IMG/VR virus record: IMGVR_UViG_3300027972_000015
Span: 1-53,725 of that record
Direction: 5' to 3' (one strand)
DNA from: a virus
DNA: 53,725 nt
Both the position numbers and the translations under genes were made by a program. The notes beneath the pieces are model-generated. The model ran no database searches. It saw only the letters and a list, made by a program, of their open reading frames with translations, and had not been told where the DNA came from. This document shows positions 4,688 to 51,625 of the stretch, piece after piece (within the stretch, counting starts at the first letter, position 1; each line of letters begins with the position of its first letter).

Positions 4688-4691
4688 TACG

Positions 4692-4811
4692 ATGAGAACG
4701 ACGCCAGAGAATTTCGATAGAGTCATGGACCACGAGACCGGCTGTCCCGATGACCGCTCCAGCGATGAACGCAAAGAAGATCTGCATACTCGGAGGATAC
4801 CACAATGCTGA
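4692..4811 (+). CDS. Small ORF between virion genes (tentative)
   Basis: A 39-codon frame from ATG 4692 follows the previous stop by 4 bases with a GGCGAG ribosome-site-like stretch before it, and its end overlaps the ATG of the following gene. The product is very hydrophilic (many Asp, Glu, Arg, one distal Cys) and matches no family I know. The tight spacing supports translation, but the frame could equally be chance sequence bridging two genes. Confidence 0.3.
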   Translation: MRTTPENFDRVMDHETGCPDDRSSDERKEDLHTRRIPQC

Positions 4812-5227: not shown

Positions 5228-5230
5228 GCA

Positions 5231-7231
5231 GTGCAACCGATCGTCCCCAAGGTCTACCGCACGGGTGATCCGGACATCGACCGGAACCTTGATCAGATCT
5301 ACGAGGCGTTTCGGCGCCTCTCGGAGTTGGTCGGGCGGACTATCGACACGACCACGGAGGAGATCGAGGCAGAGATTCCGGCGCCCGATGACCACCTCGT
5401 CAAGGCGAGCAACGCGGACACCACGACAGTTGGTGGGCTCGTAGAAAAGACGGTTGCGTCCGGCGGGACGGTGCTAACCGAGGTGACTTCGGCGGGTACC
5501 AAGAAGCTGCAGATCTACTCGCAGCCGGCGCCGGCCGTCCCCGTCGTGTCGACCACTCTGCCGAAGCCGCTCGGGACGGCTGCTATCGGCTCAGAAGGAA
5601 AGTGGGCAGACGGGGCGCACGTTCATCCGCAGCCAGACCCGGAGATCGAGTCGTCCTACCTCTACCCAGCCAAGGTGCCCGACCCGCTCAACAAGGGCAA
5701 CGTCCGATGCGTGTTCGGCGTCGACGGTGGTGGCGGTGGCGGCGCCTACGGCGCGTTCATTATGGGATGGACACAGGACGGCGACACGTTCACCCGCGAT
5801 GACGTGACGCCACTGCTGTCGGCGACCCACTTCGATGGAGAAGAGCCGCAGGTCTACGACGATGACGGCTACTCCGTGCTCACCGGCGCGCTCGTGTGCC
5901 TACCCCCGTCTGCCGACCTGCTCGCGGCCGATAAGGTCGACTGGGGAGTCTACGAAATTCTGGACATTGGCCGCCACTTCGAGGGCGCCACGCCCGTCGA
6001 CACGCATGCCGTCTTCCGGCGCGTCGGCACGCTCAATGCCTCGGCTGACTTTGTCCAGGGCATGACCTACTACATCGAGGCGGGGACCAACTTCGGAGGC
6101 CAGTACGCGACACTCCAAAGCGCCAGCGTGGTTCTCGACACCACCGAGCAGAACTGGACCTTCTCGGCCTCGGCGCCGACGTGGAACGACGCCTACGAGC
6201 TGCTGTCGTCCGCCGAGATCACCACCAGGGGCGCAAGCTCGGCCACGCTCGACCTCGCCGCGGCTGCCACGAACGGCACCGCCACCATGGTCGCCGGCGA
6301 AGGGCTCGACCACTTCAATACGGTGGCTCCGCTCCCCGCCGCGCTCCCGGCCGGGAAGGTCGACTTCTACTTGAAGGACGTCATCCTCAGCGGCTCCAAG
6401 GGCGACGGGGTGGCCAACGTCATCACGTGCCGGATCTTCGACGACGATGGCGCGACCCCGGTGGAGATCCTGAGCGCCACCACACAGCACATCGACTGGT
6501 CCACGCTCTACAGCCAGTCGGCGCGAGATCTGACCTGCCAGGGGACGCTCAATGCGGACTACACCTGGACGCCGGGCCACACGCTGCGGCTCGAATACGA
6601 CTTCACCACCGACTCGACTACCGAGGTCAGCTGCTCGTTCACGTACAACTCGGTCGACCGCTACACCAAGGTCGGCGTCACCTGGGCGAACTCGGTCATC
6701 GGGGGCACGAGCTACCATCCAGATCTGACCGGGCGCGAACTCGCCGACCAGCACCCGCTATCCTCGGTCAACCACCAAATCGCCTACACTGATGCAGATT
6801 GGGACTCCGACACATGGGCTAACGTCCCCGGACTATCAGTCGATGTCGAGGCCGGGTTCTCGTACTTGGTGAAAGCGTTTCTGTTCATTCAGCTAGGCGG
6901 CGAAGGCTGCGACATAAATTTGGACGGGACGTGCACTGCCAGTTCGTGCCTGATCAGCCATCGCGTCGCCGACGCAATCAGCGCTGCCGTGTGGCCGTAT
7001 CCGGCGTTCGTCGGCCAAGACTCACGGCTACTGCGTTCTGCGCTTGGAAGCGCCGGGGCGGCGACGTACAACATTTATGGCGGATCCGGGCTCGCTGTTG
7101 GCGAAATCGATGCAATCGTGCACGTGTCGGCTTCTGGCGCGCTCACTGTTGCGGCCGATTGCGAGCCGACTGATTACCATGCCAGTTACATCCTCGAAAA
7201 TTCGTGGATGGAAGTGAAAAAGATCTCATGA
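5231..7231 (+). CDS. Putative tail fibre/tail surface protein
   Basis: The frame starts with GTG 5231, three bases after the previous stop. It encodes 666 residues. The first 65 residues are charged and helical (VYRTGDPDIDRNLDQIYEAF), as in N-terminal attachment segments of fibres. The next part carries the GxxxxGSEGKWADGAHVHP type element often seen before a fibre shaft. The remainder is Thr/Gly/Asp-rich beta structure with repeated short strands, consistent with a receptor-binding or carbohydrate-binding trimer. Its stop overlaps the start of a sugar transferase gene (ATGA), which may act on the fibre or on the host surface. Assignment is from composition and position. Confidence 0.65.
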   Translation: MQPIVPKVYRTGDPDIDRNLDQIYEAFRRLSELVGRTIDTTTEEIEAEIPAPDDHLVKASNADTTTVGGLVEKTVASGGTVLTEVTSAGTKKLQIYSQPAPAVPVVSTTLPKPLGTAAIGSEGKWADGAHVHPQPDPEIESSYLYPAKVPDPLNKGNVRCVFGVDGGGGGGAYGAFIMGWTQDGDTFTRDDVTPLLSATHFDGEEPQVYDDDGYSVLTGALVCLPPSADLLAADKVDWGVYEILDIGRHFEGATPVDTHAVFRRVGTLNASADFVQGMTYYIEAGTNFGGQYATLQSASVVLDTTEQNWTFSASAPTWNDAYELLSSAEITTRGASSATLDLAAAATNGTATMVAGEGLDHFNTVAPLPAALPAGKVDFYLKDVILSGSKGDGVANVITCRIFDDDGATPVEILSATTQHIDWSTLYSQSARDLTCQGTLNADYTWTPGHTLRLEYDFTTDSTTEVSCSFTYNSVDRYTKVGVTWANSVIGGTSYHPDLTGRELADQHPLSSVNHQIAYTDADWDSDTWANVPGLSVDVEAGFSYLVKAFLFIQLGGEGCDINLDGTCTASSCLISHRVADAISAAVWPYPAFVGQDSRLLRSALGSAGAATYNIYGGSGLAVGEIDAIVHVSASGALTVAADCEPTDYHASYILENSWMEVKKIS

Positions 7232-7809
7232 TCCCGCGAATCATCCATCGGGTTTGGGTCCAGACAAGCTTGGTACCGGCGCCATATGAGCAGTGGTCGG
7301 CGTCGTTCCTGGAGTTGCACCCAGGTTGGATCGAGCGTCGCTCAGACGGGCTTGCGACGAATCCGCCAGCCTCGTGCTGTCACGTTCGGCAGCAGTCCAA
7401 TTGGGCGCGCCTTCACATTCTGTGGGAGCACGGCGGCTTATACGCTGACTGGGACACCGAGTTCCTGCGTGACATCGAGCCGCTGCTTTCCGGCGCGACG
7501 GCGGTGGCGTCGCCGTTCTATGCGAGAGGGGCACGGCTCCGCGCCTGCAACGCTTTCTTGGCAGCGGCCCCACATCATCCATGGATCGGCAGATGTCTTG
7601 ATCTGCTCAAGGAAGCGGATCCGGCAACTCACCTATCCATGGGATCCAAGCTCATCAGTGAGGCGCTGGACAGCCGAGACGACGTTAGGCTGCTCGGTCG
7701 CGAGGACGTCCTACAGCGCCCATTCTGGCGCCGCCTTGGGCGCAAACCGGATCCGAAATGGTACGCCGTCCACCATTTCGCCAACATGGACAGCGAGGTG
7801 CTCGGGTGA
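7228..7809 (+). CDS. DXD glycosyltransferase (OCH1/capsular sugar-transferase type)
   Basis: The start is ATG 7228, overlapping the fibre stop; the longer frame from 7204 is less likely. The 193-residue protein begins with IPRIIHRVWVQ and has the element ARLHILWEHGGLYADWDTEF at about residues 60-79. These are the hallmarks of the Gly_transf_sug family (PF04488): an opening IPKIIH-like strand and a GG-Y-D-x-D nucleotide-sugar/metal site (DWD, residues 74-76). Family members move a sugar from a nucleotide sugar to a glycan. At 193 residues it is close to a minimal catalytic domain. Coupling to the fibre gene suggests decoration of the virion or of a surface glycan, which is inference. Confidence 0.8.
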   Translation: MIPRIIHRVWVQTSLVPAPYEQWSASFLELHPGWIERRSDGLATNPPASCCHVRQQSNWARLHILWEHGGLYADWDTEFLRDIEPLLSGATAVASPFYARGARLRACNAFLAAAPHHPWIGRCLDLLKEADPATHLSMGSKLISEALDSRDDVRLLGREDVLQRPFWRRLGRKPDPKWYAVHHFANMDSEVLG

Positions 7810-7814
7810 CTCGC

Positions 7815-8159
7815 CTACTCGCAGGCGACCAGACCGTCATCGCCGCGCACAACGACGCGCAGGCCAAGGCACGGGTCTTCGTTCTCGGCGGTGCCAGGCA
7901 GTGGACGGCAGAACAACACGGTCGGCGGCTCGTAGGCCAGGCGCTCGTAACCGTCGGCGCACGTTGCTGGAGGGGGCGGTGGCGGAGTTATCGGCGCAAG
8001 CTTCGTCCAGTCCGCGGCCTCAGCGCTTGGTTGTGCGCTGGACGGGCCGGCGACGATGGGCGCCGTCGAGCGGTCGTTCCAAGTGCGCTCGCCCTCGGCG
8101 CCTTCCATGTCGCACGCCGCGAGCGCGGTAACCAGCAGAGCGAGAATCGTCGTTTTCAT
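7815..8159 (-). CDS. Antisense-oriented lipoprotein
   Basis: Reading the minus strand from ATG 8159, the 114-residue product starts MKTTILALLVTALAACDMEG, a textbook lipoprotein signal with lipobox LAAC and Cys 16. The mature part is Pro-rich (a run of seven prolines) and has four further Cys residues that could pair. It fills an otherwise empty gap between two plus-strand virion genes and converges on the sugar-transferase stop with five bases between. Single lipoprotein genes opposed to the late operon are typical of morons such as superinfection-exclusion or host-envelope modifiers; an outer spanin is another option because of the Pro-rich stretch. An upstream in-frame extension to 8297 is unlikely because it would place the signal internally. 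Confidence 0.7.
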   Translation of the reverse strand: MKTTILALLVTALAACDMEGAEGERTWNDRSTAPIVAGPSSAQPSAEAADWTKLAPITPPPPPPATCADGYERLAYEPPTVLFCRPLPGTAENEDPCLGLRVVVRGDDGLVACE

Positions 8160-8229
8160 CCACCAATGGTCCGACGAGGCAGTGACTTCGTCAAGAAGCA
8201 CGTGGTAAGATAGCGAAAGGACAGGCAGA

Positions 8230-8589
8230 ATGCCAACCGACATCATCATACCTGGTGAAACGATTACTCCGCGCACAAACGCGCAGACCGGCACCACGTA
8301 TACGGTGCAAGCATCAGACTCGTATCAAGCCGGAACCGCGCTCGTCACCCTGAGCAACGTGGCTGCGATCACCGTCACGGTGCCAAAGCAGGCGACGACG
8401 GCAATCCCGGTCGGTTCGGTCGTAAACTTTCAGTGCGTCAACACCGGCCTCCCGACGTTTGCCCCAGAAGACGGGGACGTCACGATCAATCCGGCCGCCA
8501 CGCTGAAGATCGCGGCGCAATGGGGAGCTGCATCCCTGGTGAAGACCGCGACCAATGTGTGGTCGCTCATCGGTCTTCTATCCGCGTAA
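8230..8589 (+). CDS. Small beta-rich tail/surface domain protein
   Basis: The 119-residue product consists of short hydrophobic strands separated by Thr, Pro and Gly. Its end (AAQWGAASLVKTATNVWSLI) matches a pattern common at the C-termini of phage tail or neck-fibre domains, where an Ala-Gln-Trp strand is followed by a Leu-Val-Lys-x-Ala-x-Asn-x-Trp strand. AAAGGA precedes ATG 8230. A weak plus-strand promoter candidate (GTGACT, 18 bases, TAAGAT at 8206) lies just upstream, in the gap before the opposed lipoprotein gene. Confidence 0.6.
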   Translation: MPTDIIIPGETITPRTNAQTGTTYTVQASDSYQAGTALVTLSNVAAITVTVPKQATTAIPVGSVVNFQCVNTGLPTFAPEDGDVTINPAATLKIAAQWGAASLVKTATNVWSLIGLLSA

Positions 8590-8598
8590 GGGAGTCAC

Positions 8599-9678
8599 AT
8601 GATCCTTGGAATTCTCAATCAGCAAAAGGTCTGGTTTGACGACGACTGGGACTACCGAATCCAGATCACCGCCGACGCTACCAAGGTCGGAACCGGGGGC
8701 GTAACCGGGTTCGCGGCGTTCTTCGATTTGTCGGCGATTCCGTCTGGATCAGCGTTCTGGACGCACGTCGCGGCCGACGGCGCTGACATCCGAGTGACGA
8801 AAGCGGACGGGACGACCGAGGTTCCGCGCGAGGTGGTCGCGATTTCGACCGCCGGTCACACTGGAGAGCTGCACTTCCGTGGCGACCTGTCCGATACGAC
8901 GGACACGTCATACTGGCTCTACTACGGCAACGCGGCAGCGACCGAGCCGGCGGCAGCGGCGGCGAATGGGAAGTATGCCGTGTGGTCTGACAGCCTCGCC
9001 ACGTGGCACCTGACTGGATTGGCCGACTCGGCAGTCGGGCAAAACACGTTGACAGGGACCGTGACCCATGTCGCGGGGAAGATCGGCAACGCGCTTCATG
9101 TCGACGGAACCAACTACGCTACGGGCAGCGACATACTGGACCTGCACGACGCTACGTGCATGACCGTGGCTTTCTGGGCTCGGCGACACGTGCTCAATAT
9201 CAATGAGACATTCGTTGACAAATGGCAATACGTTGGCAACGGGACATTTGCGATCCAGGGCGGAGCCGTTTCGGGGAGCGGGCTGACCGTCTATGTAGCA
9301 ACGTCGGTCGGCGATGACGGGTCAGGGTGCCGAGTTGACTCCGGCGCAGGAGTTTTTGCGGAAGACGAGTGGAAGCGCATCGCGGTGGTCTACGACGGTT
9401 CACTGACTGGAGACGCGAACCGGCTGAAGGTGTACGCCGACGGCGCGCCGGTATCGATGACGACCGCCGCCGGAGCCGTTCCCGCTGCCCTCACGTCGGG
9501 CACAGCACCGATCGTGCTAGGCGCGTTCGTCGGGCTTCCGCGTGTTCTCAATGGCGAGGTAGACGAGGTTTCAATTTTCGACTGCGCGCAAACGCAGGCG
9601 TGGGTAGATACTGATTTCGAAAACCAGAACAGCGCGGCCACTTTCTGGAAGACAATCGGGGCCGAGGAAGCTCGATAA
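8599..9678 (+). CDS. DUF2341 + LamG-like surface adhesin
   Basis: The 359-residue protein has two recognisable parts. Residues of about 14-115 match the DUF2341 pattern: WDYRIQITADATKV at the start, and a SYWLYYGNAA strand near the end. Residues of about 130-355 look like a laminin-G/concanavalin-like lectin domain, with a MTVAFWARRH strand, a KRIAVVYDGS strand and a closing NGEVDEVSIFD strand. Secreted bacterial and phage proteins use this pair to bind glycans. Here it likely decorates the tail or capsid and helps receptor binding. It follows the small beta protein by nine bases behind a GGGAG-type site. Confidence 0.75.
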   Translation: MILGILNQQKVWFDDDWDYRIQITADATKVGTGGVTGFAAFFDLSAIPSGSAFWTHVAADGADIRVTKADGTTEVPREVVAISTAGHTGELHFRGDLSDTTDTSYWLYYGNAAATEPAAAAANGKYAVWSDSLATWHLTGLADSAVGQNTLTGTVTHVAGKIGNALHVDGTNYATGSDILDLHDATCMTVAFWARRHVLNINETFVDKWQYVGNGTFAIQGGAVSGSGLTVYVATSVGDDGSGCRVDSGAGVFAEDEWKRIAVVYDGSLTGDANRLKVYADGAPVSMTTAAGAVPAALTSGTAPIVLGAFVGLPRVLNGEVDEVSIFDCAQTQAWVDTDFENQNSAATFWKTIGAEEAR

Positions 9679-15403: not shown

Positions 15404-15626
15404 GCGTCAATCGTGGCCATACGCGCATGTAGGTGTCAAGACGTTTCGCGTAACAAAGTGACGAAAATGGGCACCGCAAGAAAATGTTGCATAGCCAACC
15501 CGACGAGTCTTGTCACGTGCACCGGGACGTCTCGGCGCGAAAGTGGCGAGATTCTTGAGGCTAGAAACTGGCCCGCGGGTTGCTTTATCCCCAGACGTGG
15601 CAACGCAAAACAAGGAGGACACGACG
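15404..15626. other. Divergent intergenic region
   Basis: This 223-base gap separates the tentative minus-strand gene from the first plus-strand early-type gene. It contains a perfect TTGACA box on the minus strand (about 15427-15432), a TTTCG/CGAAA dyad around 15441-15465, and an AAGGAGG ribosome site at its right end. No full -10 partner could be placed with confidence, so it is only a likely promoter and operator region. Confidence 0.35.
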
Positions 15627-15866
15627 ATGACCAAGACGACGATCAACTACAACCGCTACGACGTGACGGTGCAATGGACCGACGAGACGAGGGAGCCAGG
15701 ATATCAGGAGCGCATCGAGACCATGATCGTCGAGGCTGGCGACACCCCTGACTCCGCGATCGCCGTGGCACGCACGCTGCGTCCAAACGCGTCTAGAGTG
15801 CAGGTGCACGGCGTGGCCGGAACCGGGATCGCGTTCGACGGCCGGGCCAACGTCTGGACCCGCTAG
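15627..15866 (+). CDS. Small early-type protein with shared start cassette
   Basis: The 79-residue product begins MTKTTINYNRYDVTVQWTDE and is alpha/beta with alternating strands. ATG 15627 follows AAGGAGGACACGACG, a cassette also present before the genes at 16052 and 17032 and in shorter form before 17304. The stop is followed five bases later by a GC-rich hairpin. No family is recognised. Confidence 0.65.
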   Translation: MTKTTINYNRYDVTVQWTDETREPGYQERIETMIVEAGDTPDSAIAVARTLRPNASRVQVHGVAGTGIAFDGRANVWTR

Positions 15867-16026: not shown

Positions 16027-16051
16027 GGACCCGAGATAAGGAGACACGACG

Positions 16052-16312
16052 ATGAACAAGACCACGACAGCGATTCGACGATCAATGGTTCACAACAATA
16101 TGCCGACAACGACTACCGCACAGAAGCTCGTCGCGAGCCTGGCAGCGCGCATCGCGCGTCACTGGCAGCGGGGGTGGCTAGGTAGCTATTACTTCTCTTC
16201 GTCGCGAGACGCGTATCGAGCAGTGGCGCGATCGGTCCGGCTGGCCCGGGCCGGGCTGCTCCACGGAGGTCATGGCCCTTACGGGCGCGGCCCTGCGGCG
16301 TGGTTGTCGTGA
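16052..16312 (+). CDS. Small basic early-type protein
   Basis: The 86-residue product is basic and aromatic (HWQRGWLGSYYFSSSRDAYR, then a helix RAVARSVRLARAGLL). ATG 16052 follows AAGGAGACACGACG, the cassette shared with neighbouring genes. It lies between two copies of the intergenic hairpin module. No family is recognised. Confidence 0.55.
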   Translation: MNKTTTAIRRSMVHNNMPTTTTAQKLVASLAARIARHWQRGWLGSYYFSSSRDAYRAVARSVRLARAGLLHGGHGPYGRGPAAWLS

Positions 16313-17001: not shown

Positions 17002-17031
17002 AGGATCATGACGACGAAGGGAGACACGACG

Positions 17032-17277
17032 ATGACCAAGACGACGATTCGCGGAATGACCCGGGACGAGCTGACGGATGCGGCGCTGGCGTACGTGCGA
17101 GCTGGCGGACGCGACACGAGCGAGGCCACGGCAGAGCAGATCGTCGACGCGGCTGTCGACAGCATGCTCGGACGCGAGGACGTGCAGGAGCTTCGCGCCG
17201 AGGCCGGCGACGTCGAGATCGTGGTGGGAGCGCTCAAGCAGTTCGTTGCGCAGGCGATCGAGGACGAGCAGGCGTGA
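17032..17277 (+). CDS. Small helical early-type protein
   Basis: The 81-residue product begins MTKTTIRGMTRDELTDAALA and is acidic and helical. ATG 17032 is preceded by GGGAGACACGACG, the shared start cassette; ATG 17008 in frame would suit a leaderless transcript. The first six codons closely match those of the gene at 15627. No family is recognised. Confidence 0.6.
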   Translation: MTKTTIRGMTRDELTDAALAYVRAGGRDTSEATAEQIVDAAVDSMLGREDVQELRAEAGDVEIVVGALKQFVAQAIEDEQA

Positions 17278-17303
17278 CCATGACGAACACCAAGGAGACG
17301 ACG

Positions 17304-17393
17304 ATGAACACCGCGAAGATGGCATACGAGCATGAGTACGAGGACGACAGCGAGCAGCTCCACACGGTTCCGGTGTACGATGCGACCTGTTGA
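17304..17393 (+). CDS. Tiny acidic ORF with strong ribosome site
   Basis: A 29-codon frame from ATG 17304 follows AAGGAGACGACG, a variant of the cassette before 15627, 16052 and 17032. The product is acidic (AYEHEYEDDSEQLHTVPVYD). It overlaps the next gene's start by 14 bases. The ribosome site argues for translation. Confidence 0.5.
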   Translation: MNTAKMAYEHEYEDDSEQLHTVPVYDATC

Positions 17394-23424: not shown

Positions 23425-23640
23425 ATGCAGCAACTGGATCTTCTCTCCGTCGAGCCGAAGCCGACCACGAAGCGCAAGCCGGGACCGCTGACCGACCTGC
23501 GCCGGTGTCCGCGGTGCCACTTGAGAGGCCCGCACGAGTGCTTGTACGACGAGCCTCACGAGGCCTTCGTCCGTCGCGGCGAGGCCGTGATCGTCGTCCG
23601 TCGCGGCGAGGCCGTGATCGTCGAGAACATGAGGAGGTAA
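23425..23640 (+). CDS. Small zinc-knuckle protein with internal duplication
   Basis: The 71-residue product from ATG 23425 has CPRCHLRGPHEC, a plausible zinc site, then two tandem copies of VRRGEAVIV encoded by a perfect 27-base duplication. The preceding sequence AGGTGAACC gives a weak ribosome site. No family is recognised. Confidence 0.6.
   Translation: MQQLDLLSVEPKPTTKRKPGPLTDLRRCPRCHLRGPHECLYDEPHEAFVRRGEAVIVVRRGEAVIVENMRR
23569..23622 (+). repeat. 27-bp perfect tandem duplication, in frame
   Basis: Bases 23569-23595 and 23596-23622 are identical. The duplication adds nine residues to the zinc-knuckle protein and keeps the frame, so it is a recent expansion or a polymorphic site. Confidence 0.85.
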
Positions 23641-26829: not shown

Positions 26830-27047
26830 AGTGCCCCATCAACCGCCGCGCGATCGACCCGTGCCCGCGCAAGGTCGCGACCGGGGTGGCCAACGAATGC
26901 CAGGATTGCATCGACCAGTGGCAGGAACGCGCCGCCCTGATCGCCGACGGCTGCAGGCTCACGCAGCCGCAGGCAGAGGCCGAGGCGACTAAGCAGTTGC
27001 GGGAGGCCGTCGAGCTCGCCGAACGCGGCCAGCGCTCCCTCTTCTGA
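26826..27047 (+). CDS. Cys-containing helical protein
   Basis: GTG 26826 overlaps the previous stop. The 73-residue product has several Cys at its start (KCPINRRAIDPCPR, then ECQDC) and a long charged helix at the end. It ends the operon that starts near 24474. No family is recognised. Confidence 0.55.
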   Translation: MKCPINRRAIDPCPRKVATGVANECQDCIDQWQERAALIADGCRLTQPQAEAEATKQLREAVELAERGQRSLF

Positions 27048-27100
27048 CCGCCGACGGGCCGCCTTAGATGCGCGGCCGAGCGAAAAGTTGCAGCTCGTGG

Positions 27101-27130
27101 TTGACTTTTCGGGTGAAAACGTGGAGGATT
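27101..27130 (+). promoter_or_regulatory. Candidate promoter before structured RNA
   Basis: TTGACT (27101) is followed directly by TTTCGG and, after 18 bases, by AGGATT (27125). A start near 27136 would coincide with the first base of the cloverleaf RNA candidate. A CGAGC/GCTCG hairpin with AAAAGTTGC loop lies just upstream (27077-27097), as at 24384. The -10 box is weak. Confidence 0.4.
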
Positions 27131-27134
27131 CGTA

Positions 27135-27229
27135 ACGTGCCGACCAACACGATTCATCGTTCCAGGTTGCGAACCGTCCCACCCTCCTTCGGGCTTTGGT
27201 CGGCACGTGGGCAGCGCAGACGGTTCGCA
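27135..27229 (+). ncRNA. Structured RNA candidate: cloverleaf with pseudoknot
   Basis: A perfect 13-bp closing stem pairs 27135-27147 (ACGTGCCGACCAA) with 27196-27208. Inside are three small hairpins: ACGA/TCGT (27149-27160), GGTT-GCG-AACC (27165-27175) and CCC/GGG (27182-27193). A second perfect stem pairs 27168-27178 (TGCGAACCGTC) with 27219-27229, crossing the first to give a pseudoknot or an alternative fold that competes with hairpin two. It lies between a promoter candidate and the HNH gene. It lacks tRNA T-loop features. It may be a regulatory leader, a free small RNA or an origin element. Confidence 0.6.
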
Positions 27230-27250
27230 TCTTGGGGCGAGGAGTAGTTG

Positions 27251-27616
27251 ATGGCGTACTCGGATTTGCTGAAGGACAGGCGCTGGCAGCGCAAGCGGCT
27301 TGAGGCCATGGCGGCGGCAAAATGGCTCTGTCAACGCTGCCCAAGCAATGACAACGCCATCCAACTGCACGTCCACCACGTGGCCTATGTTCCAGGCCGC
27401 GCACCGTGGGAGTACGAGCTTCGCGAGTTGCTTGTCGTCTGCGAGCCGTGCCACAAGGAGCTTCACGGAATGCGCGAGACAGACGTTGCTCTGTCGGTGC
27501 TTTACCAGGCGATCGCCGAGGCCCACCGCCAAGGCGACTGGGACAAGATGCAGTTGCTCGCAGACGAGGCGATGCGGCTCATTGGCGAGGGCTACTACTA
27601 CCGGAGTCTGGTCTGA
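27251..27616 (+). CDS. HNH endonuclease
   Basis: The 121-residue product from ATG 27251 (after CGAGGAG) has zinc ligands C27-x2-C30, catalytic HVHH at 40-43 and C64-x2-C67-H68: the CxxC-HH-CxxCH layout of HNH nucleases. It opens with the YSDLLKDRRWQRKRLEAMAA helix found in many phage HNH proteins. Its place right after the structured RNA and before the replication initiator suggests either a free-standing homing enzyme or a replication/recombination nuclease. It overlaps the next gene by one base (TGATG). Confidence 0.85.
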   Translation: MAYSDLLKDRRWQRKRLEAMAAAKWLCQRCPSNDNAIQLHVHHVAYVPGRAPWEYELRELLVVCEPCHKELHGMRETDVALSVLYQAIAEAHRQGDWDKMQLLADEAMRLIGEGYYYRSLV

Positions 27617-28575
27617 TGTACCTGGAGATCGACGAGGGGTTTCCAGGCCACCGCAAGACGCTGCGCCTCTGCTCGCTCATGCAGAACCCGGAGGCAGGGT
27701 GGTACATGATCCGTCTGTGGACGTGGGCGTGTCGCTCCTGCCCAAGCGGGGACTTGCGCGGGCTCACCCCGTACGATCTGGAGATGGCCGTCCAGTACCG
27801 CAAGCTAGATGGCGCTTGCTACAAGGCGATGGTCGAGAGCGGATATGTGGATGAGTCAAATCCTGGTGAACCGGGAGAGATTCACGGGTGGATGGAGCAC
27901 ACCGGTGGAGCTATTCGCAAGATGGAGGAGTCGGCCGAGAGCAAAAAACTCTGGAGATTACACAGGGATGGGAAGTGCGAGCGTCACTGTAAATGGTGCA
28001 AGACAGTCCAAGGACAGTCCAAGGACAGTCCAGAGACATTGAAAGGACGCGGAACGGACAAAACCGCACAAGACAAGACCAGTCCAGGCAAGACAAGACA
28101 AGACCAGTCCAGACAAGACAAGAGAGAGAGTAACTCTGGCGCGCGCGCGGGCGATCCTAGTGGTGTACCAGAGCGCGGTGCCGTACCAGTGCCACCGCAC
28201 AACGAGCCAGGGAAACCGACGGCCCGCAATGTCCTGGCTGCATTCGCTCGGATCCGCGGCGAAACCTGCGGAGGCAAGGCGCTGTTCTTCCAGCCGACCG
28301 AATCGACCGTGGACAAGGCGGCGAAGTGGCTTGAGGCCATGCCGGTGGACGCCGTTGCCGACATCGAGCCGGCGATGAAGCGCGCCTGTGATGGAGTTCG
28401 CGACGGAGTCAAGAGCTGGAGCGATTCGCGCATGTCTGACCCGATGTTTCTGTTCGCGACCATCGTCAGCCGGTGGAGTTCGCTGCGCGAGGAGCTGCAC
28501 GGATGCGCTCCGAAAGTGGCTGAGAAGAAAGCTCAAGAGCCGCGATGGGGTGGCTCGGACAAGATGGTGTACTGA
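27616..28575 (+). CDS. Replication initiator-like protein with internal iterons
   Basis: The 319-residue product has an N-terminal domain of about 120 residues (YLEIDEGFPGHRKTLRLCSL, then WYMIRLWTWACRS) resembling N-terminal DNA-binding domains of phage replisome organisers. A hydrophilic Lys/Asp/Gln linker encoded by short direct repeats follows at about residues 125-180. The C-terminal domain is helical (residues about 205-300), with a conserved Lys-Trp-Leu-Glu helix. This layout, with repeats inside the gene and a helicase next, is like lambda O. Assignment is from architecture; no single diagnostic motif is present. Confidence 0.6.
   Translation: MYLEIDEGFPGHRKTLRLCSLMQNPEAGWYMIRLWTWACRSCPSGDLRGLTPYDLEMAVQYRKLDGACYKAMVESGYVDESNPGEPGEIHGWMEHTGGAIRKMEESAESKKLWRLHRDGKCERHCKWCKTVQGQSKDSPETLKGRGTDKTAQDKTSPGKTRQDQSRQDKRESNSGARAGDPSGVPERGAVPVPPHNEPGKPTARNVLAAFARIRGETCGGKALFFQPTESTVDKAAKWLEAMPVDAVADIEPAMKRACDGVRDGVKSWSDSRMSDPMFLFATIVSRWSSLREELHGCAPKVAEKKAQEPRWGGSDKMVY
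28001..28112. repeat. Iteron-like repeats, candidate replication origin
   Basis: Five CAGTCC cores occur at 28004, 28015, 28026, 28080 and 28105. The first three belong to 11-base tandem units AGGACAGTCCA. The last two are within a perfect 19-base direct repeat CAAGACAAGACCAGTCCAG (28069-28087 and 28094-28112). They lie inside the initiator-like gene, the position of lambda-type origins. The array is purine-rich on the plus strand. Confidence 0.55.
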
Positions 28576-30485
28576 TGGCAAACGTTCGCAACATCGACCC
28601 GATCGCGGCGGAGAACGAATTTCGGGCCGCCATGGTGGCCGCCGGGCTGGTCCCTCCTGACGGCCTGCGAACAGACGGCAAGCTGGAGCGCGTACGCGTC
28701 GACGGGAAGCGCGGCAAGAAAGACGGATGGTATGTGTACTTCTCCGACGGCCTGCCAGCTGGCGCGTACGGTGATTGGCACGACGGGCCGGATGGCTGGC
28801 AAAGCTGGTGCGCGGCCGACACCCACCTGCTCTCTGATGCCGAGATGCGCGATCACATCGAGCGCCTCAACCGCGCCCGGGCCGCGCGCCGCCAGGAGTC
28901 GGAGAGAATCCAGCATGAGGCCCAGGATTCCGCTGATGCGATATGGGACGCGTCCAAGCCTTGCGTGGGCCCTCACCCATACCTGGAACGAAAATGCGTC
29001 CAGGCGCACGGCCTACGCGTCCACAGCGATGGCCGGCTCGTGGTTCCCATCCGTGATGGCGAAGGCCAGATCTGGTCGGTCGAGTTCATCGCGGCGGACG
29101 GCGAGAAGCGATTCCTTCCTGGCGGGCGCAAGGGCGGCTGCTGGTTCGAGCTCGGGATGCCAGGCGACGTGCTTTGTGTGGCGGAGGGGTACGCCACCGC
29201 GGCGAGCATCCACGAGGCGACCGGGTATTTCGTGGCCGTGGCTTTCGACTGCGGAAACCTTGGCAAGGTCGCCAAGGCGCTTCGCGAGAAGCACCCGACA
29301 GCGAAGATCGTCATCTGCGCTGACGACGACCAGAAGACCAATGGCAACCCCGGGCTGACGGCAGCGCAGAAGGCGGCCAAGGATGCAAACGCGCTGGTCG
29401 CCGTCCCGTCGCAGCCAGGCGACTTCAACGACCAGGCCGTTGCCATGGGCGGTTGCAGCGTCGCGGAGACTGTGAACAAAGCGCTCGCCGCGGACACTGG
29501 CCCGATCGACGCGGCCGACCTGTTCCCGCTGGTGTACGCCGAACTCGAAGCGCGCAAGGACGGGCGTAGCAAAAGCTCTATTTCAACCGGAATCGGAAGC
29601 GTCGACAAGCTGAGCGGAGGACTTCGGAGAGGGTATCTGTCCGTCGTTGCCGGGCTTCCCGGATCTGGCAAGACAGCCGCTGCTCTTGGGATCATCGCGC
29701 ATAACGCGCAAGCTGGGATTCCATGCATGCTGTTTTCCATCGAGATGGACCGTATCGACATCGGCATGCGATTTGTGTCGCAGCGGTCGTGTGTTCCTGC
29801 TGCAACGTTGTTTTCTGAGAAAGCTCCGATGGACAAACAGCAGTGGGACCACGCCAGGAATGCCGCAGACGGGCTGTCAAAGGTTCTGCTCACCGTAGAC
29901 GACCGTACGGTTACGCTGTCCCAACTCGTCGAGCAATCTCACAAATGGTACGCCGACAAGGTGCGCGCAGCAGGGAAAGAGACGGGGATGATTGTCGTCG
30001 ACTACCTTGGCCTGATTCGTAGCGAGGCCGGGAGCGAGAACCGCAACCGCGAGGTAGCGGCGATGGCCCAGGGTCTGAAGCTGCTTGCCCGTACGCTGCG
30101 TGTTCCGCTGCTTCTGTGCGCGCAGCTCAACAGGCAGGCATCGGCGCGCGGCGCTGAGCCTGAGCTTCACGATTTGCGTGACTCTGGCGAAATCGAGGCC
30201 GCCGCAGACTTGGTGTTTTTCCCGTACCAGTGGCCACGATACGTGAACAAGGACGGCGAAACGGTCATGAAGCTTCCGACAGCTGAAGAGGAATCTCGCG
30301 GCGTAGTTGCCGTCGACAAATGGCTCGTGCGCAAGAACCGTAACGGCCCGAAGGGCGCTGCGGTGGTGAAGTGGAACGCAGAGATCATGCTGTACACAGG
30401 GCTTGGCCGCGACGAGTTCCAGGTTGACGACAGAACCGTGAGCGAAAGACGACAAGAGCGCCCGCGATGCGACTGCGATGATTGA
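28575..30485 (+). CDS. Primase-helicase (TOPRIM + DnaB-like RecA fold)
   Basis: ATG 28575 overlaps the initiator stop (TGATG). The 636-residue protein has a TOPRIM half: VLCVAEGYATAASIHEATG at residues about 199-217 with the catalytic Glu, and KIVICADDD (244-252) as the D-x-D pair. A linker leads to a DnaB-type helicase: Walker A GLPGSGKT at 360-367, GIPCMLFSIEM, Walker B GMIVVDYLGL at 471-480 and PLLLCAQLNR at 511-520. No N-terminal zinc-binding domain is evident. It should prime and unwind DNA at the phage fork. No phage DNA polymerase was recognised, so host polymerase may be used. Confidence 0.9.
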   Translation: MANVRNIDPIAAENEFRAAMVAAGLVPPDGLRTDGKLERVRVDGKRGKKDGWYVYFSDGLPAGAYGDWHDGPDGWQSWCAADTHLLSDAEMRDHIERLNRARAARRQESERIQHEAQDSADAIWDASKPCVGPHPYLERKCVQAHGLRVHSDGRLVVPIRDGEGQIWSVEFIAADGEKRFLPGGRKGGCWFELGMPGDVLCVAEGYATAASIHEATGYFVAVAFDCGNLGKVAKALREKHPTAKIVICADDDQKTNGNPGLTAAQKAAKDANALVAVPSQPGDFNDQAVAMGGCSVAETVNKALAADTGPIDAADLFPLVYAELEARKDGRSKSSISTGIGSVDKLSGGLRRGYLSVVAGLPGSGKTAAALGIIAHNAQAGIPCMLFSIEMDRIDIGMRFVSQRSCVPAATLFSEKAPMDKQQWDHARNAADGLSKVLLTVDDRTVTLSQLVEQSHKWYADKVRAAGKETGMIVVDYLGLIRSEAGSENRNREVAAMAQGLKLLARTLRVPLLLCAQLNRQASARGAEPELHDLRDSGEIEAAADLVFFPYQWPRYVNKDGETVMKLPTAEEESRGVVAVDKWLVRKNRNGPKGAAVVKWNAEIMLYTGLGRDEFQVDDRTVSERRQERPRCDCDD

Positions 30486-30504
30486 TCACCAGCGAAAGGA
30501 CCCC

Positions 30505-30846
30505 ATGAGCAAGACCGAAGGATTCACATTCAGCGGCACCGGAACACTCTCCCGAATCGACCGCTTCACCTCGAAGGCCGGCAAGGAGATCATCACGCTG
30601 ATCTTCGAGCAGGGAGGGCAGTGGCCTCAAACTGTCCCTGTCAAAGTTTTTGGCCGTCTGGTCGCCACGGTCTCCGACTTGAAGCAAGGCGACGTCGTCA
30701 CGGTGACCGGCAAGCTCGGTGGCCGGGACTTCAACGGGCGCGTCTACGGCGACTCGATCGCCGAGACAATCGAGCCGGTCAGCTCGCAGCCGGCGGGAAA
30801 GGACGCGCCGCCGGTGGACGATGATCCTGGATCTTTCCCGTTCTAG
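30505..30846 (+). CDS. SSB-like OB-fold protein (DUF3127 type)
   Basis: The 113-residue product has an OB-fold core (GTGTLSRIDRFTSKAGKEII, VPVKVFGRLVATVSDLKQGD and VTVTGKLGGRDFNGRVYGDS) matching DUF3127-like single-strand-binding proteins. The C-terminus DDDPGSFPF is acidic and ends in Pro-Phe like the SSB tail that recruits partners. GAAAGGA precedes ATG 30505. It serves the nearby primase-helicase and the Sak4-like recombinase. Confidence 0.8.
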   Translation: MSKTEGFTFSGTGTLSRIDRFTSKAGKEIITLIFEQGGQWPQTVPVKVFGRLVATVSDLKQGDVVTVTGKLGGRDFNGRVYGDSIAETIEPVSSQPAGKDAPPVDDDPGSFPF

Positions 30847-43742: not shown

Positions 43743-44092
43743 ACATCAAGTCGGTCCGATTCCCGTCGCCCGTCGCCGTCGTGAAGGGAGAACTCCACAC
43801 CGAGTGGATGCCAGGCAAGCGCGGAGTGCGGGAGATTCATGTCTGGAGCGACACCACATTGCTATTCGTGATGGACGGCGTAGGCAACCTGCTCGCGCAG
43901 ATTCTGCCAGGCACGGTGATCGCCGTCGACATGCCGGACACGACTGGGCAAACGTTCGTGGAAGCCAAGGTGACAGCCACGCCATTGCCACCGCCGGCAG
44001 ATAAGGCACCCGATGGACACGCAAGCAGCACGCCTAGCAAGGACCCTCCGCCAGCTCGCCCAATCCCGAAGAGCGGCCGAGTTCAGCGCTGA
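43739..44092 (+). CDS. Hypothetical protein overlapping terminase
   Basis: The 117-residue product from ATG 43739 is beta-rich for 90 residues and then Pro/Ser-rich. Its last 80 bases overlap the start of the large terminase in another frame. It may be a packaging accessory or unrelated. Confidence 0.5.
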   Translation: MNIKSVRFPSPVAVVKGELHTEWMPGKRGVREIHVWSDTTLLFVMDGVGNLLAQILPGTVIAVDMPDTTGQTFVEAKVTATPLPPPADKAPDGHASSTPSKDPPPARPIPKSGRVQR

Positions 44093-45506
44093 GGCTTGCT
44101 GCTTCCTAGAGCAGCTTGCGGCGTGCCGTAGCCCACGGAAGCGCAAGGTTTTGCGCTGCGGTCGTCGTGCGGGCAAGACGCGGCTGATTGCGATCGCGCT
44201 GCTTGAAGCCGCCTTGCAGCTCCCGGCGGTGCCGGTTCTTTACGTCACGTTGACCAGGGGGAACGCGAAGGAAATCCTCTGGGACGAGTTGCTGTCAGTC
44301 CACGACGAATACAAGCTAGGATTCAGGGTCCGCGAGGGCGCGCTTGAATTGATCAGCCCGCTGGGCATCAAGATCCAGCTTCGCGGCGCCCACACGAAGC
44401 GGGAGATCGCCAAGTACCGCGGGAAGAAGTTCAAGCTGGTCATCCTTGACGAGGCGCAGTCGTTCCCCAACAGCGTGCTTGAACCGCTGGTCCGGGATGT
44501 CATCATGCCGACCCTGCTCGACTACGAGGGCACGCTATGGCTTGCTGGCACGCGCCCACCACTGCGGAAGGGATACTTCTGGGAGTGCTTCGACGGCAAG
44601 CTAAAGGACAGATACGAGCTGCACTCGTGGACGGTCAAGGAGAACACGAAGCTTCCAGCCAGGGCGGCCGGCAAATCGATAGAGGACATCCTCGCCGAGT
44701 TTCGCAAGGACAACGGCTGGACGGAGTCGGACAAGACATACCGCCGCGAGATTCTCGATCAGGATGTCGAAGATCGCGAAGCGCTGCTCTATGAGTACCT
44801 CGACACACGCAACGGGTACACGCAGCTCCCCCAGTCGCCAGCGTGGCACTACGCTTTGGCGTGGGACCTTGGCATAGGCGGCGACGAGGAGAAGCCGGAG
44901 CAAGAGGGCGGCACCATGTACCTCTGCATTTTGGGCTGGCCCGAGCACGATCGGCGCGTGTTCCTGGTCGACGAATGGAGCGGCAACAAGAGCGGAGACG
45001 CTAAGAGCGACATCACGGACACGGCGGCTGAGGCCCACAGGCTGATCGAGAAGTATCGGCCAGAGCGCTACGTGCTCGACTACGGGGGCCTAGGCAAGCT
45101 CATCGCCGCAGAGATTCGGCAGCGGCATCATATCCCGGTCAAGGCGGCCGAGAAGAGCCAGAAGGGCGCCTTCATCGCGCTGTTCAACACGGCCATGCGC
45201 AAGGGCGAGTTTTTCGCGCGAGCCGACTCGGTGTTTGCGCAGGAGTGCGCGTTGGTGAAAAAGGACTTCGAAGCGCTGGCCAACGGCGGGAAGCTCCAGG
45301 AGCTCCCTCCGCGCAAGGGCGGGTTCCACGGCAACGCAACCGACGGCGTGCTCTACGGCTGGCGCGAGTGCCGGGCGTGGATGGAGCAGCTGCCGCCCGA
45401 ACGCCCGGAGGGCTACCGCGAGCCCACCGAGACGATGAAGCGCGCCCTGGCCGAGCAGAAGCGAGCGAATGGCAAAGACCCGCTTGACCTGCTCATGGGG
45501 TTCTGA
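44013..45506 (+). CDS. terL: Terminase large subunit
   Basis: The 497-residue packaging motor has Walker A CGRRAGKT at 49-56, Walker B LVILDEAQ at 142-149 with catalytic Glu, and a C-terminal RNase-H-like nuclease with metal-binding Asp candidates in WDLG (285), VLDYGG (356) and ATDGVLYG (444). The enzyme pumps DNA into the prohead and cuts the concatemer. It is followed by a regulatory dyad and promoter and then the portal operon. ATG 44013 lies 10 bases after an AAGG site. Confidence 0.95.
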   Translation: MDTQAARLARTLRQLAQSRRAAEFSAEACCFLEQLAACRSPRKRKVLRCGRRAGKTRLIAIALLEAALQLPAVPVLYVTLTRGNAKEILWDELLSVHDEYKLGFRVREGALELISPLGIKIQLRGAHTKREIAKYRGKKFKLVILDEAQSFPNSVLEPLVRDVIMPTLLDYEGTLWLAGTRPPLRKGYFWECFDGKLKDRYELHSWTVKENTKLPARAAGKSIEDILAEFRKDNGWTESDKTYRREILDQDVEDREALLYEYLDTRNGYTQLPQSPAWHYALAWDLGIGGDEEKPEQEGGTMYLCILGWPEHDRRVFLVDEWSGNKSGDAKSDITDTAAEAHRLIEKYRPERYVLDYGGLGKLIAAEIRQRHHIPVKAAEKSQKGAFIALFNTAMRKGEFFARADSVFAQECALVKKDFEALANGGKLQELPPRKGGFHGNATDGVLYGWRECRAWMEQLPPERPEGYREPTETMKRALAEQKRANGKDPLDLLMGF

Positions 45507-45864: not shown

Positions 45865-46084
45865 GGCAATCGCTGTCGTCGGCAAGCTGGGCGCCGTCTG
45901 CGACGAACAGGCCTACGTCAAGCGCTACGATCGCGCGTCCATCGTGGTCGAGGTCGAGATTCCATGGGACTCGGCTTTGCAATGCGGGCTGGTCTACCGC
46001 GACGATTCTCACCACGGCGCGAAGACGGACATGCTTCCGGGTCAGCGCTGCACTCTGACGCTTGAGGTGCCGAATGGCGGCTAA
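45851..46084 (+). CDS. Small beta-rich protein before portal
   Basis: The 77-residue product from ATG 45851 is beta-rich (RASIVVEVEIPWDSALQC). Its end overlaps the portal start by 11 bases, indicating translational coupling. No family is recognised. Confidence 0.55.
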   Translation: MASTRAIAVVGKLGAVCDEQAYVKRYDRASIVVEVEIPWDSALQCGLVYRDDSHHGAKTDMLPGQRCTLTLEVPNGG

Positions 46085-48074
46085 GCGCAGCCTCGTCAAG
46101 CGCGGGGTCGCTCGGCTCCCCCACCGCATCTCGACGATGGGCAGCGCGGCCGACGTCGCCGACAACAATGGGCGCTGGTGGGAGAACGCTGGTGACGCCG
46201 GGGTGGCCCAGGCTCGCGCGCTGCTGACCACGCTGCACAGCCTGCACGGGCAGCGGCGGCTCTACGACGACCTCTACACTGGCCTGTACGAAGCGCAGCC
46301 GCCATTCTGGCTGATTCAGATGCGGGCCGGGGCGCCGATCGTCCAGGCCGCGTCGATCATGAATTCGTACACGAAGGCGCGAGCGAACATCATTCGTCGC
46401 TGCGTGGACACCGCCGCCGCGATGCTGGCCAAGAATCCAGCCGAGATTCGCTGCCAGACTGACGGTGCCTCGTGGAAGCTGCAGCGGAGGGCCCGGCAGC
46501 AGACCAAGTACATCAACGGCCTGCTCCGCGAGTGCGGGTTTCACGAGGCGCAACAGCGCTGCTTCATCGACGCGTGCCTTACCCGCGCCGGCGGGCTTGT
46601 GAAGATGTGGATTGACCGCAAAAACAAGCGGATTCGCTGCGATCGTGTCCACCCCGGCGCCTTTCTCTGGAACGACTACGAGTCGCCGCCGCTGCGCAAC
46701 GCGGGCCTGCGCTACCTGGAATCGAAGAGCGTCTTGATGGACCGCCACCCAGAACTGGCCGCGCAGATTCGCACAGCTCCGCACGGGACCAACCCGCAAC
46801 TCACGCACATCTACCGCCGCATGTTCGGCAACGAGCTGATGGCCGACCAGGTCGAGGTCAGCGAGATGTGGCACCTCACCGAGGACGCCGAGAAGCCGGG
46901 CCGGCACATCATGGCTCTGCCCAACGTCACGCTTGAGGATGAGCCCTGGGAGTTCGATTTCTTCCCGATTCCGCGGCTTTTCTGGGCCGAGGCCGACCGC
47001 GGCTCGTGCAACTCGCCGGTGGCCGAGCAGCTCGTCGGCTACCACACGCAGATCGGCGAGATGATGCTCGCCATCTCGAAGAGCCAGCGCCTCGCGTGCG
47101 TCCCTCGCGTCTACATCGAGAAGGGCAGCGATATCGTCGAGGACGAGATCACCAACGCGATCGGTGGGGTCGTCCACTACACCGGCACGCCTCCGACGAT
47201 CGCCACCTCGCAGGCGATGCCGCCCGAGTTCTACCAGTACTTGAACCAGCTCGTCGCGTGGGCGATGGCCGACACCGGGCTGAACGAATTCCAGGCCCAG
47301 GGCACGCTGCCGATGGGCATGCAGGACGCTTCCGGGCGAGCTCTCCGCGAAATGAACGACACGGGCAGCACGCGCCAGGTGCTCAAGGGTCAGCGCATTG
47401 AGCGGCACACGATCAGCGCCGGTGAAATGGGCTTCCGCATGTCGGCGAAGCTGGCCAAGGAAAGCCCGGACTTCGCGATCAACGCCCTTGGCGCCCGCAG
47501 CTTTGAGCGCATCAAGTGGTCTGAGGTCGAGGGCGACATCCGCGATATCCGCATGGTGACAACGCCGACGAGCATGCTCGGCTCGACGACGAGCGGCCGC
47601 ATTCAAAACGTCGTGGATATCATCAAGGGCGGATTGCTCCCGCCCGACGAGGTCAACGGCGGGCTCGGCCTCAAGCTGCTTGCCTTCCCAGATTTGGAGA
47701 AGGTCGTCACGATGGAGACGGCCATTCGCGAGCTGATCGAGATGATGGTCGACGGGGCGCTCTACGACGGCGACTACTTCGCGCCTGAGCCGTATCTTGG
47801 TCCGCAGGGGTTGACGCTGCTCAAGACGATGGCGTGTCGGACCTACTTCCACGCGTTGCAAATGGACGGCGTGCCAGCGAAGAACCTGGACATGCTTCGT
47901 CGCCTCATGAGCGAAGCGGACTTTCTCACGCAGAACTTCGCGGCCAAACAGGCGCCGATTCAGCAGCCGCAGGCCAATGTGCCAGCGCCCGCGCCGGCCC
48001 CGCTGCAGCAGTCCCCGCTGGCTCCGCCTCCGATGCCCGAGATGCCCATGCCGGGCGGGGGGCAGCCGCAATGA
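46074..48074 (+). CDS. Portal protein
   Basis: This 666-residue protein from ATG 46074 (TTG 46062 is an alternative) has long helical and beta segments, with LYDDLYTGLYEAQPPFWLIQ near residue 70 and a C-terminal Pro/Gln-rich tail (APAPAPLQQSPLAPPPMPEM). Size, place after terminase and before scaffold and capsid, and a central YQYLNQLVAWAMADTGLNEF segment fit a podovirus-type portal, the dodecameric ring for DNA entry. The call is from synteny and length more than from a single motif. Confidence 0.8.
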   Translation: MAAKRSLVKRGVARLPHRISTMGSAADVADNNGRWWENAGDAGVAQARALLTTLHSLHGQRRLYDDLYTGLYEAQPPFWLIQMRAGAPIVQAASIMNSYTKARANIIRRCVDTAAAMLAKNPAEIRCQTDGASWKLQRRARQQTKYINGLLRECGFHEAQQRCFIDACLTRAGGLVKMWIDRKNKRIRCDRVHPGAFLWNDYESPPLRNAGLRYLESKSVLMDRHPELAAQIRTAPHGTNPQLTHIYRRMFGNELMADQVEVSEMWHLTEDAEKPGRHIMALPNVTLEDEPWEFDFFPIPRLFWAEADRGSCNSPVAEQLVGYHTQIGEMMLAISKSQRLACVPRVYIEKGSDIVEDEITNAIGGVVHYTGTPPTIATSQAMPPEFYQYLNQLVAWAMADTGLNEFQAQGTLPMGMQDASGRALREMNDTGSTRQVLKGQRIERHTISAGEMGFRMSAKLAKESPDFAINALGARSFERIKWSEVEGDIRDIRMVTTPTSMLGSTTSGRIQNVVDIIKGGLLPPDEVNGGLGLKLLAFPDLEKVVTMETAIRELIEMMVDGALYDGDYFAPEPYLGPQGLTLLKTMACRTYFHALQMDGVPAKNLDMLRRLMSEADFLTQNFAAKQAPIQQPQANVPAPAPAPLQQSPLAPPPMPEMPMPGGGQPQ

Positions 48075-48301
48075 CCTACGCGCGCAAGGCCAAGGCTTCG
48101 CAGATCGGCTACAAGCGCGGGCGCAAGTCTACCACCGTCGACTCGCGGCCCCCGTCAGACGCGTATCGATCCGGCTGCGACCGCATGGGCTGGGCGTTCG
48201 CGCCGGTCCACCAATTTTGTCCCCAATGCGGCCACACGCCGGGGTGGTGTAGTTGCCACGCCGGCCGCGCCGTAGAGCAATCACAGGAGCACAATGGCTG
48301 A
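48071..48301 (+). CDS. Small Cys-containing protein
   Basis: The 76-residue product from ATG 48071 is basic at its start and has CPQCG then CSCH, a zinc-ribbon candidate. It is between portal and scaffold, overlapping both. No family is recognised. Confidence 0.5.
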   Translation: MTYARKAKASQIGYKRGRKSTTVDSRPPSDAYRSGCDRMGWAFAPVHQFCPQCGHTPGWCSCHAGRAVEQSQEHNG

Positions 48302-49496
48302 AGCGACACAAGCCACCACGACCGCCACCGCGACGAGCGCGCTTGCCGCGACCGTCACCACGTCGACGCCGCCCCCGGCCGATTTGACCGCCACCAGCAC
48401 GCTCGACCCGCTGGCCGCGAAGGACGTCAGCGACCGCCGACACGGGGCGCACCAGAAGGCCGCAGCTCGCGCAGACGCGGCGATCGCCAAGGCCATGTCC
48501 GGAGACAAGCCGGTCGCCGAGAACGCGAAGCTTGGCGAAGATGGCAAGGCCCCAGAGGCTCCCAAGGCGGAAGGCGAGAAGCCGGCCGAGGACGCCGACA
48601 AGACCAAGGCTGACGCGGAGGCCAAGGCGGCCGAGGACAAGAAGAAGGCCGAGGAGTCCGCCGCCAAGGATACGCGCCTTTCCCGCGCCATGGCGATCGT
48701 TGCCGAGCGCGAGCGAGCCGTGGCCAAGCGTGAGAACGCGTTCAAGTCGCAGATCGAGACGGAACGTCAGAAACTGGAGGCCGAGCGCCGCACGTTCCAG
48801 ACCGAGAAGGCCGGCGACGCCGCTGACCTCGATTTCGTCCGCAAGGTGCGCGAAACGATTCAGACGCGCGGCAAGTACGCCGCTGCGGCGCTGTTCGGGT
48901 TCTCGATGGAGGAGTTGGTAGAGGCCAAGTCTCACGAGGTCGAGCCGAGCGCCAAGATCATCGCCGAGCAGGAGGCCCGCCGCATCTACCAGGAGGCCGA
49001 GGCCGCGCGTGCGAAGGCCGCGAAGGACGCTGAGGAAGCCGACGCCGCGAAGAAGCGCCAGGATGAAGAGCAGATCGCGGCCAAGGAACAGGCCGAGGCG
49101 ATCGAGTTCGTGGACATGGCCGTCCAGCTTCACAACGCCGACACGTCCAAGCGCCCGTGGTTGGCCCTGACGCCGGTCACTGGTGAGCAGCTTTGGCACC
49201 TCGCCAAGAACATGCAGACCGAGGCCGGGCGCAAGCCAAGCGCCTCCGAGGTGCTCGACCGCGCCGAGAAGCTTTTGGCAGACCGCTACGCTCCGCTCAC
49301 GGCGAAGACTGCGGCCGAGCCGCCCCCACCCGCTCCCGCGGCTGCCAAGCCTGTCGAGGCCGACAAGCCCAAGGAGCCCCCGAAGCAAGAAGCAAAGAAG
49401 CCGCCTGCAGAGCAACCACGCAAGCGGTACGAAAAGCGCATCACGCCGATGGATCGCGCTGCCGCGGCCTTGCGAAGCCGTGGAATTGACCGTTAG
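48294..49496 (+). CDS. Scaffold-like protein
   Basis: The 400-residue product is Ala/Lys/Glu-rich with long coiled coils from about residue 80 to 290 and a Pro/Ala-rich region near 340-375, ending in a basic helix (KRYEKRITPMDRAAAALRSR). Helical, charged proteins directly before the major capsid gene act as internal scaffolds that guide prohead assembly, with a basic C-terminus that binds capsid protein. No protease motif is seen. Confidence 0.75.
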   Translation: MAEATQATTTATATSALAATVTTSTPPPADLTATSTLDPLAAKDVSDRRHGAHQKAAARADAAIAKAMSGDKPVAENAKLGEDGKAPEAPKAEGEKPAEDADKTKADAEAKAAEDKKKAEESAAKDTRLSRAMAIVAERERAVAKRENAFKSQIETERQKLEAERRTFQTEKAGDAADLDFVRKVRETIQTRGKYAAAALFGFSMEELVEAKSHEVEPSAKIIAEQEARRIYQEAEAARAKAAKDAEEADAAKKRQDEEQIAAKEQAEAIEFVDMAVQLHNADTSKRPWLALTPVTGEQLWHLAKNMQTEAGRKPSASEVLDRAEKLLADRYAPLTAKTAAEPPPPAPAAAKPVEADKPKEPPKQEAKKPPAEQPRKRYEKRITPMDRAAAALRSRGIDR

Positions 49497-49580
49497 TCGG
49501 TGAGCAAATAGTCAGCGAAACACGGCCGAGCGACACGCCGAAGTGAAGATCCATGACCAACACACTTTGGAGAAAACACC

Positions 49581-50837: not shown

Positions 50838-50867
50838 TCGCCCAATCCGAGAAAGAGAAGGAACATC

Positions 50868-51583: not shown

Positions 51584-51589
51584 CCAAGG

Positions 51590-51618: not shown

Positions 51619-51625
51619 TTTCACC

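Follow-up and report, generated by a model that had tools for sequence, protein, structure and literature searches.

Crossing stems and a coupled leader ORF ahead of phage replication operons: a candidate pseudoknotted attenuator

In leader-peptide transcription attenuators, translation of the leader decides whether a terminator forms, and pseudoknots serve as operators in known cases of translational autoregulation. The C4 antisense RNA is a processed, discrete RNA of ~77 nt. In the repY-repZ leader of plasmid ColIb-P9, repZ is activated by a pseudoknot made of a short loop contact, for which an antisense RNA is a competitor; the IncB and IncL/M leaders are of the same type. Asano and Mizobuchi in 1998, as well as others, reportedly described the leader peptide ORF, the RNA pseudoknot and the translational coupling to the replication gene in this IncI-alpha leader of ColIb-P9 (cited in PMC10724649). 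The phage locus Gifsy-1 IsrK-orf45-anrP has a leader ORF with a hidden ribosome-binding site, a stop that overlaps the next start (AUGA) and a terminator in the leader; its amino acids are not conserved, and its nucleotide sequence is conserved among enterobacteria (PMC4825925). The C4 antisense RNA of P1/P7 (RF01695) and the CI RNA of P4 are phage immunity RNAs that are cut from a larger transcript and carry variable target-pairing segments (PMC5320573), and in the mRNA of the type I toxin gene timP a pseudoknot in the 5' leader controls translation (PMC11228461). Here we describe an element of another architecture, of which no account was found in the part of the literature that was covered.

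Crossing stems in front of a replication operon

We analysed a viral DNA of 53,725 nt (IMG/VR record IMGVR_UViG_3300027972_000015, positions 1 to 53,725), which is referred to as the window. A perfect 13-bp stem (S1) and a perfect 11-bp stem that crosses it (S2) were found exactly where the original prediction had placed them (Table 1), and the two have no bases in common. Their arrangement had been called far beyond chance, which agrees with a control of 40 dinucleotide-preserving shuffles of the whole 53.7-kb window, searched for inverted repeats that span 11 bp or more and have a loop of at most 80. Shuffled windows held 2.2 such repeats each (0.125 per window for at least 13 bp), and a crossing pair occurred in 0 of 40. 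As capped helices in the window, S1 alone has a predicted stability of about -24 and S2 of about -20 kcal/mol. Nested folding cannot accommodate both stems and preferred S2; as they use different bases, the two may coexist in one molecule. Three small hairpins had also been proposed inside S1, giving a cloverleaf. These can be drawn (ACGA/TCGT, GGTT/AACC, CCC/GGG) but are tiny, one of them takes bases of S2, and no counterparts were seen in the relatives that were read by eye rather than scanned systematically. We therefore dropped the cloverleaf reading and kept the remainder of the earlier interpretation, namely a structured RNA that heads the HNH/replication operon and contains two stems which cross.

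Table 1. Coordinates of the element and its downstream genes in the window
Feature	Position	Strand	Remarks
Weak promoter-like pair TTGACT - 17 nt - GAGGAT	27101..27129	+	predicted +1 at ~27136-27137
S1 5' arm, ACGTGCCGACCAA	27135..27147	+	overlies leader ORF start codon
Leader ORF, GTG start, 36 codons (MPTNTIHRSRLRTVPPSFGLWSARGQRRRFASWGEE)	27137..27247	+	TAG 3 nt before HNH ATG; no Pfam match
S2 5' arm, TGCGAACCGTC	27168..27178	+	starts at leader codon ~10
S1 3' arm, TTGGTCGGCACGT	27196..27208	+	starts at leader codon ~19
S2 3' arm, GACGGTTCGCA	27219..27229	+	HNH start 22 nt downstream; no strong U-run
HNH endonuclease gene, first cistron	27251..27616	+	PHROG HNH families, best E 8e-14
Replication initiation protein	27616..28575	+	phrog_9474, E 5e-15
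Primase (Toprim) - DnaB-like helicase	28575..30485	+	family matches
Single-strand DNA binding protein-like (SSB-like)	30484..30846	+	weak PHROG match, E 1e-3

The HNH gene and the gene for a replication initiation protein lie downstream, as had been claimed. All genes neighbouring the element, from a small upstream ORF ending at 27047 to the SSB-like gene, are on the plus strand, and the HNH product is a stand-alone protein of 121 aa. A repetitive CAAGACAAGACCAGTCCAG-type stretch occupies 28010-28130 within the initiation protein gene. Elsewhere in the window we noted four near-copies of a 32-nt stretch (AAGGAGGACACGACGATGACCAAGACGACGAT; 15612-15643, 16037-16068, 17017-17048 and 17289-17320), which resembles a ribosome site plus start and apparently stands at the head of several small ORFs, and a small ORF at 23425-23640 with a direct duplication giving RRGEAVIVVRRGEAVIV. 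The terminase large subunit was recognised at 44013-45506; the large ORFs at 655-9675 and 46062-52315 had no PHROG match and are presumably structural.

Transcription had been proposed to start at the first base of the element from a TTGACT promoter. The TTGACT at 27101-27106, with its 17-nt spacing, does put +1 on the first bases of S1, but the -10 sequence is poor. A strict consensus scan of window positions 26900-27700 found no promoter-like site on either strand, and the same scan also misses the sense promoter candidate. In some relatives (L001, L002, L004, L064, L109, L214) the best promoter-like match gives a predicted +1 at most 4 nt from S1, and in many other leaders the predicted +1 lies 6-23 nt upstream of S1. 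The start of the element is probably the 5' end of the transcript. An SD-like GGAGGA is present at 27123-27128, upstream of the predicted +1. With +1 at 27136-27137 this site would be untranscribed and the leader GTG nearly leaderless, which counts against the explanation that we favour below.

Conserved topology and unrelated sequence in other phages

No close DNA relative of the window was found among 50,697 phage records. Relatives of the primase-helicase occur in two IMG/VR contigs, L001 (79% identity) and L002 (56%), and crossing stems with unrelated letters lie at the same place in both. In L001 they measure 13 bp (with one G.U) and 9 bp, in L002 14 bp and 17 bp, each of the latter two with one G.U. 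The original prediction would have been refuted by a lack of compensatory changes in homologous regions; the opposite was found, as stem letters are fully replaced and pairing is kept. We searched with an HNH profile (80 loci), reran the search with a wider profile and added four cellular contigs. The arm order S1 5', S2 5', S1 3', S2 3' was present upstream of HNH or replication genes in ~20 other phage contigs; examples from a crossing-helix scan with this order directly before HNH are L064, L073, L077, L078, L099, L106, L109, L111, L114, L124 and L167, and doubtful members are L093, L127 and L051. Most HNH relatives have no detectable element. Searches with the HNH and initiator proteins gave few cultured relatives, all of them distant, and the two that were checked, Pan5 and Abp95, showed no comparable element at HNH.

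Position and strand could be assessed across these loci. A Watson-Crick-only helix scan of upstream regions gave 29 with the element vs 3, 7 and 5 in shuffles, and of 79 contigs, 21 contained it in the 240 nt upstream of the HNH start, compared with 0-4 of ~78 at nine other offsets. Among the non-Watson-Crick pairs that flank the helices and continue into pairs, G.U exceeded A.C by 12:1, from which it follows that the paired molecule is plus-strand RNA. Crossing stems alone, when counted over whole loci, showed no strand specificity (88, against 97 for the opposite strand and 64 for shuffles), and the case therefore rests on position, the G.U bias and the leader ORF. Crossing stems together with a coupled ORF numbered 41 on the coding strand, part of which are still chance matches given 15 on the opposite strand and 17 after shuffling. 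The stems of 22 elements resembled each other no more than letter-shuffled ones did (similarity 0.46 vs 0.45 after shuffling for S1 and 0.48 vs 0.475 for S2), with median stem lengths of 10.5 and 11 bp. Stems range from 7 to 17 bp across elements (S1 7-16 bp), loop lengths vary widely, and no k-mers common to the elements or their loops were found beyond chance.

In four relatives (L004, L085, L129, L214) the element lies upstream of a non-HNH gene, and we can therefore conclude that it belongs to the head of the replication operon and not to HNH. L004 is a 59% primase-helicase relative; HNH takes second place in the operon of L129, a Phycisphaerales MAG, and the second gene of L214 is an initiator that resembles the one in the window. 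Elsewhere, the genes that follow the element resemble initiators, DnaB helicases or primases, as read from sequence (PHROG matches were obtained for the window only), and they differ from phage to phage. In L004 a long Ala/Asp-rich low-complexity coding stretch (1750-2470) separates the element from the replication genes. A further candidate element, at 1881 of L065 and away from the HNH match, has a leader ORF of 41 codons, and 1 nt separates its stop from a gene that begins MIEEGSLRLFRSIINSQVFTNQTAL.

The leader ORF, a possible mechanism and its alternatives

The earlier interpretation had overlooked that the element goes with the replication operon's first gene and not with HNH, and had also missed a leader ORF through the knot and U-runs after S2 in relatives. 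Across elements the leader ORF has 29-73 codons. Its start codon lies within the S1 5' arm or shortly behind it, the frame stays open across both arms of each stem, and the stop falls where the next gene begins, often in an ATGA or a few nt before. We applied a fixed rule (ATG or GTG from the S1 start up to 15 nt beyond its 5' arm; stop at -8 to +16 of the next start), according to which 13 of 24 elements have such an ORF when 1.6 were expected from leader shuffling (P ~1e-10), with some room for bias since the next-gene starts had been assigned by eye ahead of the test. L073, L078, L114 and L127 are without a coupled leader ORF under this rule, and in L064 and L079 the leader runs in frame into HNH. 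Within the leader ORFs the S2 5' arm starts at codon 1-11 and the S1 3' arm at codon 14-25; S1 covers the site where leader translation begins, and S2 the leader's end. The leader peptides are apparently unrelated to each other, and the ORF overlaps the terminator-like stem. A U-run follows the S2 3' arm in about eight relatives (L079, L083, L099, L106, L111, L114, L124, L167), and over all elements the combined P for U-runs after S2 is ~1e-6; a clear U-run is absent in the window, L001, L073, L077 and L078. Computationally, the elements thus keep a topology without sequence, the RNA strand, the position and a leader ORF with a coupled stop, with U-runs in a subset.

On sequence grounds, we consider it probable that the element is a pseudoknotted leader-ORF attenuator with translational coupling in the 5' leader of an early replication operon. 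Transcription would start at or shortly before S1, and the first ribosome would then race against the closure of S1. A ribosome that begins leader translation ahead of the synthesis of the S1 3' arm would keep S1 and the S2 5' arm open; the operon would be transcribed and translated, and because the leader ends where the first operon gene begins, ribosomes would be delivered to that gene by coupling or re-initiation. If no ribosome arrives in time, S1 would close over the leader start site, S2 would form next, and expression would be off. Shut-off would proceed by intrinsic termination where a U-run follows S2, and where it does not, as in the window, the first gene would be left uncoupled. 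We infer this on/off logic, together with simultaneous formation of both stems, dependence of the first gene on leader translation and any signal that sets the balance. Counting against this reading are the elements with no clear U-run after S2, those that have no coupled leader ORF by the fixed rule or a leader in frame with HNH, and the preference of nested folding for S2.

The arms could alternatively act in trans: a terminated or processed leader of ~100 nt might serve immunity or copy control, like P1 C4, P4 CI or Gifsy-1 IsrK, by pairing with transcripts of sister or superinfecting phages. Arms that are perfectly complementary, phage-specific and free to change in sequence suit this role, as do the U-runs in a subset, the leader ORF with a coupled stop as in IsrK-orf45-anrP (PMC4825925), and a site before replication genes as described for P4. 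We regard it as unlikely, since a single transcript carries the two partners in a stretch of ~100 nt, where cis pairing should win, since the arm order a, b, a', b' yields no collinear antisense duplex, and since a search of the window for further arm copies that could be trans partners gave nothing convincing. C4 antisense RNA (RF01695) itself was rejected, as its covariance model matched neither in the window, nor around the element, nor in ten related loci; the same held for all Rfam families in the window at the gathering threshold, around the element at a permissive one, and in the ten loci. Ranking next, and also improbable, is a pseudoknot that binds a protein (autoregulation by the initiator, HNH or SSB) or a ligand (a riboswitch). 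The fixed position before the operon and the general use of pseudoknots as operators speak for such a site, but stems and loops have no conserved nucleotides, loop lengths vary widely and the downstream genes differ between phages.

A DNA element, such as a replication origin, a cruciform, or a homing or recombination site, would account for a location adjoining a replication initiator and an HNH gene. It is very improbable given the 12:1 excess of G.U over A.C on one strand only, the placement upstream of the operon in the same direction, and the leader ORF with a coupled stop that threads the stems. We give the least credence to a guide-type RNA, similar to HEARO or omega RNA, that would act together with the HNH nuclease: the next gene is often HNH, but this is a stand-alone protein of ~120 aa and not a large IscB/IsrB, other genes follow in L004, L129, L214 and L085, Rfam gave no match, and most HNH relatives are without a detectable element. 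HEARO/omega RNA with IscB/IsrB was rejected on the 121-aa HNH, the lack of an Rfam match and the occurrence before non-HNH genes. Also rejected were an HDV-like ribozyme, which has a short fixed P1 (S1 is 7-16 bp, and Rfam gave no match), and tRNA/tmRNA (0 genes by ARAGORN).

Comparison with known leader RNAs

More tentatively than the attenuator itself, and with odds somewhat against it, we suggest that such elements form a widespread, undescribed class of phage leader RNA, in which there is no conserved sequence, only the topology of two crossing stems and a coupled leader ORF is selected, and a bistable switch controls the replication operon in phages of diverse bacteria. An element in which all letters change is hard for sequence-based RNA discovery and would escape covariance libraries. 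If true, the proposal would yield a rule, open to testing, for the gating of replication genes in many uncultivated phages, and would account for the otherwise meaningless ORFs of 30-50 codons before phage HNH and replication genes.

By their descriptions, none of repY-repZ, IsrK-orf45-anrP, C4 and P4 CI combines long crossing stems inside a leader ORF with a total lack of sequence conservation. C4 differs from the element in its conserved three-hairpin fold and RNase P processing, and timP in that its pseudoknot is a short, activating contact of seven pairs, in a bacterial toxin gene and not in a replication operon. In contrast to leader-peptide attenuators, the peptide of the element is not conserved and no regulatory codons were seen, and S2, its terminator-like stem, crosses S1, which would close over the start of the leader itself. 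With Gifsy-1 IsrK-orf45-anrP it shares a phage leader ORF with a coupled stop and a non-conserved peptide; however, IsrK lies upstream of orf45 and its pairing is nested, whereas the element has its crossing stems within the leader ORF and shows no sequence conservation. Like ColIb-P9 repY-repZ, the element has a predicted pseudoknot in the leader and a leader ORF with a stop coupled to the next gene. It differs in belonging to phages and not to a plasmid, in stems of 7-17 bp that overlie the leader start and probably repress, and in that no antisense RNA is evident by the strict promoter scan, which misses the sense promoter too. If the proposed mechanism is true, the element would be the phage counterpart of the repY-repZ switch known from plasmids.
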